Shown here in pieces: positions 11,497-24,290 of a stretch of 49,166 bases of DNA. The position numbers were made by a program, and so were the translations under genes. The number at the start of each line of letters is the position of its first letter. Position 1 is the first letter of the stretch. Under the pieces are notes generated by a model. It did no database searches. It was given only the letters and a program-made list of their open reading frames with translations, and was not told where the DNA came from. Source of the stretch: Candidatus Blackburnbacteria bacterium RIFCSPLOWO2_01_FULL_40_20 (GTDB lineage: Bacteria > Patescibacteriota > Microgenomatia > UBA8517 > UBA10165); contig MHCC01000024.1 of assembly GCA_001816475.1 (NCBI GenBank), positions 1-49,166 of the forward strand, given 5' to 3'.

Positions 11497-13308
11497 ATGG
11501 ATATAAACAAGTTTGTTGCTGACATAATTAAAGACCAATTAACCAAGGCTGTTCAAGAAGCACTTCAAGAGTTAGGGATTGAGGCGACAGTCGTACTTGA
11601 ACATCCGACAGAAGGTACACACGGGGACTACTCGACGAATGTTGCCATGATGGGGTTTAAAAAAGTTCCGGGAGAATGGAAAAGTCCGATGGAGTTGGCG
11701 GAGGAGATTGTAGGTACGATTAAAGATAAAGATACAGATAAAGAGGGTGGGGAATTGGTGGATAAAATTGAGGTTGCTGCCCCGGGATTTATCAATTTCT
11801 GGCTTACTCCCAATGCATTACTTAAAGAGTTGGACCATGCTCAAAAAGCTGGTGATGCCTACGGTGCCGGTAAACCCGACAAAACTATGGTAATTGATTA
11901 TTCGGCACCAAACATCGCCAAGCCATTTGGGATTGGGCACTTGCGGTCAACAATCATCGGCCAGGCAATTTATAACCTGTACAAGTTTTTGGGCTGGAAA
12001 ACAATTGGCGACAACCATTTGGGGGATTGGGGGACACAATTTGGGACTTTGCTTTATCAAATAACAACTAAAAAGCTGGATGTAAACAGGCTAACAATCG
12101 CAGACTTGGAAGGGGAATATGTTGAGTTTAATAAAATGGCAGTTGAAAACCCGGACTTAAAAGAGGAAGCACGGGCATGGTTTAAGAAGCTTGAAGATGG
12201 GGATCCCGAATCTCGCGAAATTTGGGAGAAATTAAAAGAAATTTCATTGGCGGAGTTTAACAGAATTTATAAGTTACTTAACGTTGAAATTGATTATGCG
12301 TATGGCGAGAGTTTTTATCAAAACATGTTTGAACAAGTAATCCAAGGGTGTGTGGATAAAGGCATAGCAATGGAGGACCAAGGGGCCTTGATTGTGGATT
12401 TGTCAAAAAATGGCATGCCTCCTGCTTTAATTAGAAAATCAGACGGCGCGTCGACTTATCTAACGCGTGATTTGGCAACGGTCAAGTTTAGAATTGAAAA
12501 ATGGGATCCGGATGCAATGGTTTATGAAACCAGCTCGGAACAAGATCTTCATTTTAGGCAGTTGTTTGCCATTGTGGAGTTGTTAGGGTGGTCTAGTTCG
12601 ATACAGTTTTTACATGTAAAGCATGGTTTGTATTTGTCTCCCAGGGGCAAAAAGTTTTCAACGAGACGTGGAGACACCGTTCATTTGGAGGATGTTTTAA
12701 AAGAGGCGGTAGAGAGGGCGGGAAAGTTGGGTAAAGATAAAGATACAGATACAGAAAGGGGTGGTGAGTTGGCAAAAGAGGTGGGGATTGGGGCTGTGAA
12801 GTATTTTGATCTATCCCATCATCCGGCAACAAACATTGTTTTTGAATGGGAAAAGATGTTCGCACTTGAGGGAAACTCTGCCCCATATTTGCAATACACG
12901 TATGCAAGAACAAGGAGTGTGAGTGAGAAGGCAAGAGGATTGAAAAGAGATAAAGATAAAGATAAGAAGGCAGACCGTCCTTTAGACTCCTTTAATATTC
13001 CTTTAAATTCAGAAGAGCTGGCTGTTTTGAGGCATTTTTATAAGTTTCCAGTGGTAATTCGCGAGGCGGCCGAGAACTTTTCGCCAAACATTTTGGCCAA
13101 TTTCTTATTTGAACTGGCCCAAAAGTATAACAGCTTTTATAACAAACATAGGATTCTGAGTGACAACAAGACTACGGCAAAAAGTAAAGCTGTAGACGGC
13201 AGACGAGAGTCGGTAGTCGAATTCAGGCTTGAAATAACCCAAGTTACTGGTAACATATTAAGAACGGGGTTGGGATTGCTCGGGATACAGACGCCCGAGA
13301 GAATGTGA
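11497..13308 (+). CDS. argS: Arginyl-tRNA synthetase
   Basis: 603 residues, class I. The HIGH box is GIGH (145-148, within SAPNIAKPFGIGHLRST), the KMSKS-loop equivalent is KKFSTRRGD, and a DALR-type anticodon-binding domain sits at the C-terminus (PYLQYTYARTRSV and onward). It charges tRNA-Arg; a tRNA-Arg(CCU) gene occurs in this window at 20997. Three separate low-complexity Asp/Lys stretches interrupt it: KDKDTDKE near 76, KDKDTDTE near 417 and RDKDKDKK near 486. They share a DNA word (GATAAAGATA) that also occurs in tagA. The peptidase gene follows after 15 bases and is probably cotranscribed. Confidence 0.96.
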   Translation: MDINKFVADIIKDQLTKAVQEALQELGIEATVVLEHPTEGTHGDYSTNVAMMGFKKVPGEWKSPMELAEEIVGTIKDKDTDKEGGELVDKIEVAAPGFINFWLTPNALLKELDHAQKAGDAYGAGKPDKTMVIDYSAPNIAKPFGIGHLRSTIIGQAIYNLYKFLGWKTIGDNHLGDWGTQFGTLLYQITTKKLDVNRLTIADLEGEYVEFNKMAVENPDLKEEARAWFKKLEDGDPESREIWEKLKEISLAEFNRIYKLLNVEIDYAYGESFYQNMFEQVIQGCVDKGIAMEDQGALIVDLSKNGMPPALIRKSDGASTYLTRDLATVKFRIEKWDPDAMVYETSSEQDLHFRQLFAIVELLGWSSSIQFLHVKHGLYLSPRGKKFSTRRGDTVHLEDVLKEAVERAGKLGKDKDTDTERGGELAKEVGIGAVKYFDLSHHPATNIVFEWEKMFALEGNSAPYLQYTYARTRSVSEKARGLKRDKDKDKKADRPLDSFNIPLNSEELAVLRHFYKFPVVIREAAENFSPNILANFLFELAQKYNSFYNKHRILSDNKTTAKSKAVDGRRESVVEFRLEITQVTGNILRTGLGLLGIQTPERM

Positions 13309-17135: not shown

Positions 17136-17474
17136 CTAGTTTATCTGGCAGGGACGTCTTGGATGTTTTGGAGCGTCGCCGCCAATCTTGCCAATTCGCC
17201 GGAAGAAATCCGGTCCATGCATTTTCTTGACCAGGTCTCCGCCAGTTTTGCCAATCTGGCGATAGAAGTCCGGTCCGAACTTTGCCTTCACAGCCGCGCC
17301 GCCAGCCTTTCCTATCTTAGAATAGAAATCTGTTCCGTGGCGTACCTTGCCTGCTGCTGCACCACCCTTTTTGCCCATGGCAACGTAGTGCTCCTGGCCG
17401 TATTTTGCTTTGACCGCCTCGCCACCCTTCTTTCCAGCTTCGCTGACAGTCATTTCCTTGTGTGGCTGTGCCAT
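17136..17474 (-). CDS. KGG-repeat (GsiB/Con-10-like) stress protein
   Basis: The start at ATG 17474 (MAQPHKEMTVSEAGKKGGEA) is chosen for the GAAGGAGAAAAGG ribosome site. The 112-residue protein consists of about five copies of a ~20-residue repeat of the form (F/Y)Y-x2-(I/M)GKxGG-x2-VKxK(F/Y)G. This is the hydrophilic KGG motif of GsiB, Con-10 and LEA-like desiccation/stress proteins. No membrane helix is seen. It is the last gene of the operon from 18233, which otherwise encodes two-helix membrane proteins. The presence of a stress protein is the best clue to the operon's role. Confidence 0.85.
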   Translation of the reverse strand: MAQPHKEMTVSEAGKKGGEAVKAKYGQEHYVAMGKKGGAAAGKVRHGTDFYSKIGKAGGAAVKAKFGPDFYRQIGKTGGDLVKKMHGPDFFRRIGKIGGDAPKHPRRPCQIN

Positions 17475-17522
17475 TACCTTTTCTCCTTCGCAAATTCGCG
17501 ACGTGTAAGACAAGTTCCGGGT

Positions 17523-18365: not shown

Positions 18366-18488
18366 TCATGCGAAGCATGGCACATGTCAAATTATTAATT
18401 TGTCATAGGGTAGCGGAGCTACCATATGTCAAAAAGCAACTTTTTGTCATGGGCCAAGAAATAATTTTCAATTTTAAATTTTCAATCA

Positions 18489-18507
18489 ACTCCGATCAGA
18501 TCGGAGT
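18489..18507. repeat. Dispersed palindrome, ACTCCGAT-type
   Basis: Perfect dyad ACTCCGATC-A-GATCGGAGT set within an AT-rich repeat block. A sister copy lies at 19151-19169. Confidence 0.75.
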
Positions 18508-18698
18508 CAAATTCCAATTTTTAAAATCCAAAATTCAAAGCTGTTTTGAATTTGGAAATTATTTGGAATTTGGAATTTAGAATTTGGAATTTTTTAATTG
18601 AGAGTTGGGGGTTGGTCTGCATCAAGATTTATCAAATACTCGACATCTTTGTCGATTTTGACATCATCTCTATCAGACCAACCAGCACCCTGGAACGC

Positions 18699-18974: not shown

Positions 18975-19150
18975 ACTTTCCTCCGAATGTGCAATTTGGC
19001 TTGGTGCCGGGCATCATTGTAGCAAACTTTGGGAAAAATTTCAGAATGGAGAAGAACAGAAAAAGAATTTTCAATTTTCAATAACCAATTTACAATGAAT
19101 TTTCAATATTATAATTTTCAAACCATTTGGAATTTGTAAATTGAAATTTG

Positions 19151-19169
19151 ACTCCGATCTGATCGGAGT
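19151..19169. repeat. Dispersed palindrome, ACTCCGAT-type
   Basis: Perfect dyad ACTCCGATC-T-GATCGGAGT in an AT-rich block. A weaker TTCCGACTTGGTCGGAA copy lies at 19224-19240. Confidence 0.75.
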
Positions 19170-19283
19170 TGAATGAAAATTGTAAATTGAAAATTAAATT
19201 TGTTGCCGGGGGATAGGGGTTTATTCCGACTTGGTCGGAACTTACCCTTACCCCCGGCGGGAAACTAGCGCGTGTTTGCCAAG

Positions 19284-20625: not shown

Positions 20626-20813
20626 GTTTTGAGTAGTGAGCAAAGTGTCATCCGGAAAAGTGAAAGAAGGGGGACTAAGTTTGTAGTTAGATTGTTAAAA
20701 ATCAATTGACTAACAACCCAATGGTGTGTTTCAATTGTAGCCCATGTTATTCAGAAGAAGTGTTATAAGTCAAGTCTTGAGGCGGATTAAGCATTAGTCT
20801 GTTAAGAAGAATG

Positions 20814-20885
20814 TCGGGGTGCTGGGAATTGAACCCAGTGTCTCTTCGTCCCGAACGAAGCGTGATACCGATTCACTACACCCCG
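20814..20885 (-). tRNA. tRNA-Pro(CGG)
   Basis: A complete cloverleaf: acceptor CGGGGTG/CACCCCG, D stem GTGA/TCAC, anticodon arm CTTCG-TTCGGGA-CGAAG with anticodon CGG (codon CCG), T arm CTGGG-TTCAATT-CCCAG, and discriminator A. CCA is not encoded. Confidence 0.93.
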
Positions 20886-20890
20886 AATTG

Positions 20891-20924
20891 CGTCCCCGGC
20901 AGGAGTTGAACCTGCATTTAAGGT
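20891..20924 (-). tRNA. Orphan 3' half of a tRNA
   Basis: Read on the minus strand: ACCTT (positions 39-43), AAAT, T arm GCAGG-TTCAACT-CCTGC, then CGGGGAC and discriminator G. No GTCCCCG acceptor partner lies nearby. A possible 5' anticodon-stem strand AAGGT with loop TTCTTAT and a preceding GAAC lies at 21149-21165, beyond the interrupted tRNA. The two flanks are joined by the 8-bp pair CGAGCCGC/GCGGCTCG (21141-21148 with 20932-20939). It may be a remnant or a second-level interrupted tRNA. Confidence 0.5.
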
Positions 20925-20944
20925 AAAGACGCGAGCCGCTTTTG

Positions 20945-21145
20945 CGCCGCTGGGAGGAATTGAACCTCCAACCTTTCCCATGAGTCTGATGCTGTGCGTC
21001 TCTACCAAGAGTCGAACTTGGATTTAAGGTTTAGGAAACCTCCGTTCTGTCCGTTGAACTATAGAGACAAATACGCATCAGCCTCTCTCCAAAGCTTCGC
21101 TTTGGTGGGAGGACGGGACTGCTCTGTCCGTTGAGCTACAGCGGC
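20945..21145 (-). tRNA. Interrupted tRNA, anticodon loop split by 133 nt containing tRNA-Arg
   Basis: The 5' part (21145-21113) reads acceptor GCCGCTG, TA, D arm GCTC-AACGGACA-GAGC, A26, GTCCC, GT. The 3' part (20979-20945) reads GGGAA, AGGTT, T arm GGAGG-TTCAATT-CCTCC, acceptor CAGCGGC, G73. All segment lengths are canonical, the acceptor stem pairs 7/7 and the anticodon stem 4/5. The interruption 20980-21112 folds as CCTC/GAGG around CCAAAGC-GAA-GCTTTGG, then CTGATGC/GCATCAG around the intact tRNA-Arg. The anticodon cannot be assigned: straight reading from U33 gives CCU. The D loop with GGA suits an Arg isoacceptor. It could be a real intron-bearing tRNA or a tRNA disrupted by insertion. 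Confidence 0.7.
20997..21068 (-). tRNA. tRNA-Arg(CCT), nested inside an interrupted tRNA
   Basis: Complete: acceptor GTCTCTA/TAGAGAC, D arm GTTC-AACGGACA-GAAC, anticodon arm GAGGT-TTCCTAA-ACCTT (anticodon CCT, codon AGG), T arm CCAAG-TTCGACT-CTTGG, discriminator G. It closely follows the standard bacterial tRNA-Arg(CCU) pattern. It lies wholly within the insertion of the flanking tRNA. Confidence 0.93.
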
Positions 21146-21317
21146 TCGATAAGAAACCTTTGTTCTGACTCTTATATTTTACCACAGCGGAACTTACATT
21201 ATTGGATAAAACTCGATAATGGAAATTGATATACTTTTTTAGGGTTTGGGACAGTTTGAAGGAATTGACTTTTTGAAGTTTAAGGGGAAAATCCGATATG
21301 ATCGGAGTAAAAGTGTG

Positions 21318-21805
21318 GGCGCCGGGGCTGTAATCGTCGAGCGAACTCGAGGAGTTACAGGCCCCAGCGCCAGGCGGGAGGGGAGAAACAGAGAGGAGGA
21401 GGTCGGCTGCTGTAACCAAGGTCAGTTCACGGTATGCCGGGATCCAGTCTCGACCCCGAAACCCGACAGGAACCGGTTTTTGCTTACTACCAAACTAGGC
21501 AGCCCAAGTCGGTGACCTGGCGCAAAGACCCAAACACGGGCCTTACCTGTCACGAACATCCGCCCCCACCCCACAAGAAGTGGACAGGTAATATGCGCCC
21601 GTGTTACTCTCGCACCTAAGTCGGTGCGTCATCGAGTTTTTTGCTGCCTCTTAGTCGGCCGTTCGTATCCTCTTGCTTCAGCTCTCATCTCGCCCCAAAA
21701 AGCTTCCAATATTGAAAACCTTTTGCGGGCAAGGTGAGTTTTTCTCTCTCCCTTTTAAAGAACTTGTCGAGAACCTGGAAGCTTATCTCCCAGTTCTCAA
21801 CTCAT
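21318..21805 (-). ncRNA. Large structured RNA of unrecognised class
   Basis: About 490 nt with no credible frame and many compensating helices. They are ACACGGGC/GCCCGTGT (21534-21541, 21597-21604) stacked on TTACCTGTC/GACAGGTAA (21543-21551, 21583-21591); GGCTGC/GCAGCC (21405-21410, 21499-21504); a GCACC/GGTGC hairpin (21611-21628); a GAGAACC.../...GTTCTC hairpin (21769-21798); and a ~25-bp imperfect terminal hairpin 21318-21371 (GGCGC...GCGCC). The strand is inferred from the TTGACA-N17-ACAATA promoter just upstream on the minus strand. I could not find the invariant RNase P P4 words, the tmRNA tRNA-like ends or the SRP tetraloop motif, so no identity is claimed. The plus strand also has a hairpin plus T6 near 21640. 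Confidence 0.55.
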
Positions 21806-23050: not shown

Positions 23051-23285
23051 TCATTAGTTCGGGGTCTCAGAAAACTCAAGGAGTTGGTGGGTCGGAAGAT
23101 CGGTGAGTGAGGGTGTCAGAAGGTCAGCTTTGCCGACTTACCGATATTCTGATTTTCTGGTACACAGATATGTTATACTGCCATTGAAAATCTGCCCAGA
23201 AAAAGTAATCAGTCTAAGTCTAAGTATATATAACTGTATCAAATCAACCTGCCTCTTAGACTTGGTCTTAGACTTGGGCTTTCTC

Positions 23286-24290
23286 ATGTTGTCTCAACGA
23301 ATTGCTATAGACCTTGGAACTGCCAACATATTGGTTTGGGTTGCTGGCGAGGGGATTGTTGCCAATGAACCGACAGTTGTTGCAGTTTCTGAAGAGGATA
23401 ATCGTGTAATTGCTGTTGGAAATGAGGCCAAGAGAATGCTTGGCCGAACCCCGGGAAACCTTTTAGCATTGCGCCCGATGCGCGACGGGGTTGTTGCCGA
23501 CTACCAAGTTACCGAGGCGATGCTCCGCTATTTTATCTCCAAAGTTGCCCCCCGCATCTCACTTTTTAAGCCCGAAGTTATGATTTGCGTGCCTGCAGGT
23601 TGTACTCAAGTTGAACGGCGGGCGGTATTGGACGCAACCTTGTCTGCTGGCGCACGAGTTGCTTATTTGATTGACGAACCTCTGGCTGCCTCAATTGGTG
23701 CAAAAATTCCGATTGCTGCCCCGTCGGGACATATGATAGTTGATATAGGAGGCGGAACAACCGAGGCTGCAGTCATTTGTTTGGGAGGAGTTGTTGTACA
23801 CAAATCCGCTCGTGTTGCTGGGAACAAGCTAGACGGGGCAATCTCGGATTTTATGAAGCGAAAGTACAATTTGATAATTGGGGATCAAACCGCGGAAAGT
23901 ATAAAAATAAAGGTTGGTTCAGCCACCCGTTTGGTTCAAGAAGAGGCGATGGAAGTTTCGGGGCGAGATCAGGTTTTAGGTCTACCGCGGACGATAGTTT
24001 TGTCGTCTCACGAGGTAACGGATAGTATTCGACCAGTGCTGTCTCAAATGCTTGGGGCGGTCAAGGGAGTTTTGGAGGATACGCCCCCTGAGCTTGCCTC
24101 AGACATTATTGAACGGGGGATAACAATGTCGGGCGGGACAAGTTTGCTCCGCAATTTCGACAGGTTTATGACTGAAGAAACCGGAGTTCCGGCCCACTTG
24201 GCCGAGGACCCTTTGCTTTGTGTTGTGCGGGGAACGGGGATCGCGCTTGAGAACCTAGATATTTATAAAAGAAGCGTGACGAAAAGATAA
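23286..24290 (+). CDS. mreB: Rod-shape actin homologue MreB
   Basis: 334 residues from ATG 23286 (MLSQRIAIDLGTANILVWVA), the usual MreB start. The frame extends upstream but that part has no homology. The actin-fold ATP site is present: phosphate-1 DLGTAN, phosphate-2 IVDIGGGTTEAAVI, adenosine motif SGGTSLLRN. It polymerises on the inner membrane to guide cell-wall synthesis. The upstream region has TGTTATACT near 23170 as a promoter candidate and an inverted CTTAGACTTGG repeat. Neighbouring envelope genes (PEGA protein, two glycosyltransferases) fit a cell-surface cluster. Confidence 0.96.
   Translation: MLSQRIAIDLGTANILVWVAGEGIVANEPTVVAVSEEDNRVIAVGNEAKRMLGRTPGNLLALRPMRDGVVADYQVTEAMLRYFISKVAPRISLFKPEVMICVPAGCTQVERRAVLDATLSAGARVAYLIDEPLAASIGAKIPIAAPSGHMIVDIGGGTTEAAVICLGGVVVHKSARVAGNKLDGAISDFMKRKYNLIIGDQTAESIKIKVGSATRLVQEEAMEVSGRDQVLGLPRTIVLSSHEVTDSIRPVLSQMLGAVKGVLEDTPPELASDIIERGITMSGGTSLLRNFDRFMTEETGVPAHLAEDPLLCVVRGTGIALENLDIYKRSVTKR

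Follow-up and report, generated by a model that had tools for sequence, protein, structure and literature searches.

How does a complete tRNA-Arg(CCU) gene come to lie inside the anticodon loop of another tRNA gene, and is the interrupted tRNA still made by splicing? We addressed this question in the Microgenomates-type (CPR) bacterium Candidatus Blackburnbacteria bacterium RIFCSPLOWO2_01_FULL_40_20, for which a stretch of 49,166 nt (contig MHCC01000024.1, here called the window) had been described in a sequence-only reading as containing a tRNA split in its anticodon loop by a segment that holds a whole tRNA-Arg. The observation itself is real, as the detailed comparison below confirms. The accompanying interpretation is only partly supported: the nesting and its non-standard character hold, whereas splicing of the outer tRNA does not find support. 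Our findings suggest that the arrangement is most likely the footprint of a mobile element that targets tRNA genes. Throughout, genomes are denoted by G (G000 being the genome of the window) and loci by L.

Architecture of the tRNA-Arg(CCU) locus

The tRNA genes of the locus are read on the minus strand, and its components are as follows.
21145-21110 (-): 5' half (nt 1-36, ending in the anticodon CCT) of the native, outer tRNA-Arg(CCU), GCCGCTGTAGCTCAACGGACAGAGCAGTCCCGTCCT
21109-20980 (-): 130-nt interruption between nt 36 and nt 39, replacing A37 and A38
21109-21069 (-): left flank of the inner tRNA, 41 nt, with the hairpin CCAAAGC-GAA-GCTTTGG (21105-21089) and then CTGATGC (21081-21075)
21068-20996 (-): inner, complete tRNA-Arg(CCU), with anticodon arm GGTTTCCTAAACC
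20995-20980 (-): right flank of the inner tRNA, 16 nt, with GCATCAG (20992-20986), complementary to CTGATGC
20979-20946 (-): 3' half (nt 39-72) of the outer tRNA-Arg(CCU), GGGAAAGGTTGGAGGTTCAATTCCTCCCAGCGGC, followed by 21 nt
20924-20889 (-): orphan 3' half of a third tRNA-Arg (ACCTTAAATGCAGG..CGGGGACGCA), with its 5' half missing
20885-20813 (-): tRNA-Pro(CGG), a conserved neighbour
21181-21176 (-): probable -10 box (GTGG TAAAAT A) of the ancestral tRNA promoter, upstream of the outer 5' half
23054-21858 (-): PEGA/PD40-domain protein gene (Pfam PF08308), a conserved upstream neighbour of tRNA-Arg(CCU)
23103-24290 (+): MreB (Pfam PF06723), a conserved neighbour of the locus

The two outer halves form 7/7 acceptor pairs, 4/4 D-stem pairs, 5/5 T-stem pairs and 4/5 anticodon-stem pairs, and the G27-A43 mismatch is also present in intact relatives, which identifies it as native. 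When compared with the intact tRNA-Arg(CCU) of G035 (L050), the 5' half differs at 1 of 36 nt and the 3' half at 0 of 34 nt, and a 34-nt exact match is expected by chance only ~3e-16 times in the window. The unsplit gene reads GTCCTAAGGG where the window reads GTCCT-[130 nt]-GGG. The interruption is therefore 130 nt and not the 133 nt given in the sequence-only reading, and since two loop bases are replaced the net insertion is 128 nt. Of the helices involved, CCAAAGC/GCTTTGG and CTGATGC/GCATCAG are present in the sequence, whereas the weak CCTC/GAGG pairing proposed earlier is only a fold prediction (RNAfold).

ARAGORN and Rfam (RF00005, 64.1 bits) both identify the inner tRNA-Arg(CCU), as well as tRNA-Pro(CGG), but neither tool detects the split tRNA. 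Two features were absent from the sequence-only reading, namely that the outer tRNA is itself tRNA-Arg(CCU) and that a third tRNA-Arg 3' half lies close by. The latter is most similar to the 3' half of tRNA-Arg(CCU) of L021 (82%), and relatives have a whole tRNA-Arg(CCU) at this place, next to tRNA-Pro. A candidate remnant of its missing 5' half, AGAACAAAGGTTTC, occurs upstream of the locus at the expected spot but is not significant (p 0.25). The -10 box is inferred from the same GTGGTAAAATA standing before intact tRNA-Arg(CCU) in L062 and L026; it was not among the consensus hits of a promoter scan.

G000 comprises 958 kb in 27 contigs. Of the tRNAs found, the inner one is the only intact Arg(CCU), while an Arg(UCU) exists elsewhere, so AGG codons would not necessarily be unreadable without Arg(CCU). 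Around the 42 Rfam tRNA matches (loci L001-L019), ARAGORN found no tRNA-Asn(GTT) and only one tRNA-Met(CAT); the others may lie in assembly gaps or be interrupted. Elsewhere in the window, an arginyl-tRNA synthetase gene (11497-13308) lies about 8 kb from the tRNA-Arg locus, and a GC-rich, hairpin-forming non-coding stretch upstream of the locus (21315-21600) has no Rfam match at the gathering score. A 71-nt inverted repeat (18462-18532 and 19126-19196), 90% complementary and 593 nt apart, is located in a stretch (15.4-20.8 kb) of small minus-strand ORFs, several of which have no Pfam match. A small protein with repeated KGG motifs (17136-17513) shows a sub-threshold match to LEA_5 (PF00477).

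Recurrence of the insertion in the class

In the order, tRNA-Arg(CCU) often stands directly before tRNA-Pro(CGG), behind an ORF whose end (NLY.LT.K*) resembles the C-terminus of the PEGA protein in the window. G002, which belongs to the same family as G000, has an unsplit GCCGCTG..CAGCGGC tRNA-Arg(CCU) (L056), from which we infer that the outer tRNA is the native kind and the inner one the newcomer. Among the 57 genomes of the order, no other has such a split tRNA with a 105-135-nt interruption; three further pattern matches proved to be an unsplit tRNA (G009) and two stretches that do not look like a tRNA. In L023 (G021), a duplicate of the first ~22 nt of tRNA-Arg(CCU) lies upstream of the complete gene. 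Similarly, in L062 (G005) and L104 (G042) an orphan 5' half of tRNA-Pro(CGG) stands directly before a complete tRNA-Pro, without a protein gene.

We initially considered that the locus might be a unique curiosity, a reading rejected once further cases were found. A scan of 84,980 species genomes for the same interruption found one more, Levybacteria RIFCSPHIGHO2_01_FULL_41_15 (G132, locus L074, record MFNV01000006.1). A scan of the 374 genomes of the class for 5' halves not followed by A38 found four loci, comprising the window, G132, G248 of a third family (L085), and G386. G132 and G248 are nested like the window, with an outer tRNA-Arg(CCU), a complete inner tRNA-Arg(CCU), inserts of 106 and 101 nt, respectively, and related flanks CCGCGCCTGC..CGGCGRGCAGG. 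In G386, the 5' half is followed by an ORF and then by a complete tRNA-Arg(CCU). The nesting is present in 1 of 73, 1 of 45 and 1 of 6 genomes of the three families. No nested pattern was found in viral contigs, and phage and plasmid records match only the inner tRNA-Arg. A search of viral contigs for a shared mobile unit, CGCGCCTGC..CGGCGRGCAGG, returned 80 hits, none with CCTAA, which we regard as chance GC-rich matches.

An empty site was identified in the genus of G248, where G352 (L127) has the unsplit tRNA. Joining the two outer halves of G248 gives the G352 sequence with two changes, C13 to T and T71 to C, both of which keep their pairs, and the 101-nt insert lies exactly between A37 and A38 without repeat or loss. 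The unusual D-loop (AGTAGACA) and T-loop (TGCAATT) of the outer tRNA of G248 might suggest degeneration, but this was rejected because unsplit tRNAs of the same genus have the same loops. The surroundings are also syntenic (NDK, tRNA-Pro, tRNA-Arg, PEGA, MreB), with a PEGA-type gene and MreB at the G248 locus. In the same genus, G205 and G312 have at the same place the HTH-protein gene described below, followed by a complete tRNA-Arg(CCU).

A tRNA-adjacent HTH protein family

The G386 ORF encodes 212 aa, with an N-terminal HTH (sub-threshold Pfam HTH_38 and HTH_20) and a C-terminal domain with a conserved LYW[GA]EGxK motif, in which Y-W-x-E-G-x-K, together with N, W and G, is invariant. Relatives occur in 156 of the 374 genomes of the class. 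The 15 closest, in 15 genomes, all lie 3-34 nt upstream of a same-strand tRNA-Arg(CCU); of the 30 best hits, 25 lie within 150 nt upstream of a same-strand tRNA (Arg, Ile, Met, Gly, Lys), and of 25 relatives in large viral contigs, 21 lie within 150 nt of a tRNA, often inside tRNA arrays (L092-L121, L234-L258). In L096, L098 and L101, the open frame runs into the linked tRNA. Searches of Pfam and NCBIfam revealed no nuclease domain, only HTH. Two confident AlphaFold models of a viral relative (mean pLDDT 92 and 91) have no fold match in PDB or BFVD at E <= 0.001, and the only nuclease hint is a weak profile match to the homing endonuclease I-DmoI (E 0.0023); the family is a putative homing nuclease, and this assignment is not secure.

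In 5 of the 15 HTH-linked loci, a decayed tRNA-Arg 5' half ending exactly at nt 36 precedes the gene. It is significant in L092, L093 and L098 (0 of 300 shuffles) and weaker in L102 and L103 (p 0.03), while the other ten loci show no significant orphan 5' half and none shows an orphan 3' half. Together with the intact target in related genomes, this corresponds to a gene inserted in its own target site, as expected of a homing-endonuclease element, although it holds for the relatives and not for the window, which lacks the gene. In L121 (G005, from the window's own family), the same order is seen by eye for another tRNA, with a 5' half of tRNA-Ile ending at the anticodon, then the HTH-protein gene, and then a complete tRNA-Ile(TAT).

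Unsplit tRNAs often have the anticodon arm CCCGTCCTAAGGG, and the orphan 5' halves upstream of the protein gene end in CCCGTCCT in L092, L093 and L098. The linked tRNAs are recoded at this arm in 14 of 15 cases (recoded arms include GGTTTCCTAAACC and CTCGGTCCTAACGAG), whereas L097 keeps the site. Class-wide, 1 of 15 genomes with the close homologue has CCCGTCCTAAGGG anywhere, against 132 of 359 others (Fisher p 0.011), and within four genera 0 of 7 against 12 of 22 (p 0.012); these tests ignore phylogeny beyond the within-genus contrast. In the window, the outer tRNA is of the CCC/GGG type and the inner one of the recoded GGTTTCCTAAACC type, like the linked tRNAs of L092, L095, L104 and L105. 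However, this stem type also occurs in unlinked tRNAs of the order, and the nearest to the inner tRNA is one of those (L030, 92%), so for the window the recoding argument is suggestive only. Co-evolution of HTH protein and linked tRNA was not supported, since their similarities do not correlate overall (Mantel p 0.20), and co-mobilisation of one tRNA with one protein is consequently not general. Nevertheless, the linked tRNAs of G205 and G312 are 81-86% identical to linked tRNAs of two other families (f19 and f25) and at most 68% identical to unsplit ones of their own genus.

Origin of the nested tRNA and related systems

The explanation we favour, with moderate confidence, is that the native tRNA-Arg(CCU) gene was cut open in its anticodon loop by a DNA insertion that carried a complete second tRNA-Arg(CCU). 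In this view, the inner tRNA is the working gene, probably transcribed from the old tRNA promoter through the outer 5' half and released by ordinary RNase P and 3' processing, whereas the outer halves serve as leader and spacer and are not joined. The insertion would belong to a recurrent process at this locus in this class, in which cassettes enter exactly at nt 36-38 of tRNA-Arg(CCU) and bring a replacement tRNA whose anticodon stem is often recoded, which would make it immune to a site-specific nuclease. The likely driver is the HTH protein family, which we infer to recognise and break the anticodon arm, the break being repaired with a cassette carrying the protein gene and a whole tRNA; after loss of the protein gene, the rescue tRNA must stay, and the window would be such a protein-less remnant. 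Our comparisons demonstrate the place and precision of the insertion, its recurrence in the same loop, the intact outer halves and complete inner tRNA of the window, the empty site in the genus of one nested case, the decayed halves, and the presence of the HTH gene at the same site, whereas nuclease activity with site-specific cleavage, homing, the immunity role of the recoding, RNA processing and the descent of this insert from an HTH-carrying element are inferred. Several facts count against a simple version of the model: no trace of the HTH gene remains in the 130-nt insert, the inner tRNAs of G132 and G248 keep CCCGTCCTAAGGG, so that immunity does not explain those two, and intact outer halves would also fit a functional tRNA.

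A bolder version, which we consider possible but tentative, is a natural home-and-rescue element. Here, a small HTH protein whose second domain has no known fold match would cut the anticodon loop of tRNA-Arg(CCU) in CPR bacteria, insert there, and carry a complete tRNA-Arg(CCU) with a recoded anticodon stem that replaces the broken gene; a tRNA nested in a tRNA would remain as its fossil when the protein gene is lost, and sister families would do the same at other tRNAs and in phage tRNA arrays. If right, this adds a way in which mobile DNA can use an essential RNA gene, not by splicing and not by restoring part of it, but by carrying a whole, uncuttable replacement, which is the logic of an engineered rescue drive found in nature. 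It would also explain orphan tRNA halves and tRNA genes that annotation programs miss in CPR genomes, and it points to a widespread tRNA-adjacent protein family.

Splicing of a genuine intron that happens to contain a tRNA, with both tRNAs maturing, appears unlikely. Its strongest support is that the outer halves are undecayed in all three nested genomes and that in G132 and G248 the exons join exactly to the native GTCCTAAGGG, with the insert at 37/38, the canonical intron position of archaeal and eukaryotic tRNAs (PMC4090602); the two changes in G248 also keep the stems, and the insert helices enclose the inner tRNA. However, the nestings are singletons in each family, so recent insertion explains intactness equally well, and in the window the loop would be GUCCUAU, with AU instead of AA at 37-38. 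A profile search for the splicing ligase RtcB (PF01139) gave no match in 0 of 4 genomes searched, G000, G132 and G248 among them, while the control search returned matches in 9 of 14 genomes. Covariance searches found no group I intron, with no intron family at E <= 1 in window positions 20700-21700 or at E <= 0.5 in L122, L074, L092 and L098, and only ~30-57 nt lie outside the inner tRNA, too few for a group I core. The window insert does follow a U (U36), as bacterial group I introns in tRNA anticodon loops do, but those of G132 and G248 do not. Furthermore, ordinary end processing of the inner tRNA would sever the outer precursor, and relatives at the same locus carry a protein gene plus a whole tRNA with the outer 5' half decaying, which is what a dead outer tRNA does. 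An intact isoacceptor elsewhere, named beforehand as a finding that would speak against splicing, is present in a special form, since it is the inner tRNA itself.

The scar of a lost tyrosine-integrase island is also unlikely, although the displaced 3' half (20924-20889) and the multiple tRNA-Arg pieces would fit it and anticodon-centred sites are common (PMC4383910). No integrase was found among the window proteins scanned with Pfam, which did not include every ORF; the HTH loci at the same site hold one ~210-aa gene with no integrase seen beside the tRNA; classic integration supplies part of a tRNA and not a complete one; and the nested insert is only ~100-130 nt, with a clean junction and no repeat of the target in G248. 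Nuclease-independent duplication, in which a break in the loop was repaired by capture of another tRNA-Arg(CCU) copy with flanking repeats, is similarly doubtful. The flanks do look like short dispersed palindromic repeats (CCGCGCCTGC/GGCGGGCAGG in G132 and G248; CCAAAGCGAAGCTTTGG in the window), and the inner tRNAs of G132 and G248 keep the putative target, yet the same loop of the same tRNA is hit in three families and also in the HTH loci, which implies a site-specific agent, and G132 and G248 share the flank sequences across families. An assembly artefact is very unlikely: the genomes look like draft assemblies in many contigs, the named record is a MAG, and tRNA genes share sequence, but three separate assemblies show the nesting, the insert ends and orthologous synteny are clean, and record MFNV01000006.1 has the same sequence at the G132 locus.

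Literature searches on CPR tRNA introns, nested or split tRNA genes, and homing endonucleases at tRNA genes gave no report of this arrangement among open-licence papers, but related systems exist. In the disruption of Caldiarchaeum tRNA-Thr(GGU) (Sugahara et al. 2012, PMC3293823), a 5' tRNA fragment lies upstream of a whole copy of the same tRNA and is explained by mobile-element integration and recombination; that case is archaeal, with tRNA introns and an inferred pNOB8-type integrase, and we found no description there of a tRNA nested within the interrupted one. A homing endonuclease aimed at a tRNA anticodon region is also known in bacteria, where the tRNA survives by self-splicing, whereas here no ribozyme is found and the tRNA would be replaced by a second copy. 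The phage homing endonuclease SegB (PMC13096335) is likewise linked to phage tRNA biology, although its setting is unrelated and we found no split or replacement tRNA reported there. Engineered home-and-rescue or toxin-antidote drives (e.g. PMC7968924, PMC7046741) share the logic of disrupting a target gene while carrying a rescue copy that is not cut; they are synthetic, CRISPR-based and used in insects, while the present case is a comparative-genomic inference on a tRNA gene. Finally, integrative islands of tyrosine integrases (Islander database, PMC4383910) split the tRNA gene, often in the anticodon loop, restore its function with DNA that the element brings, and leave a displaced fragment; here, by contrast, no integrase was seen, a complete replacement tRNA takes the place of a fragment, and the whole insert is ~100-130 nt, or about 0.7 kb in the HTH form.
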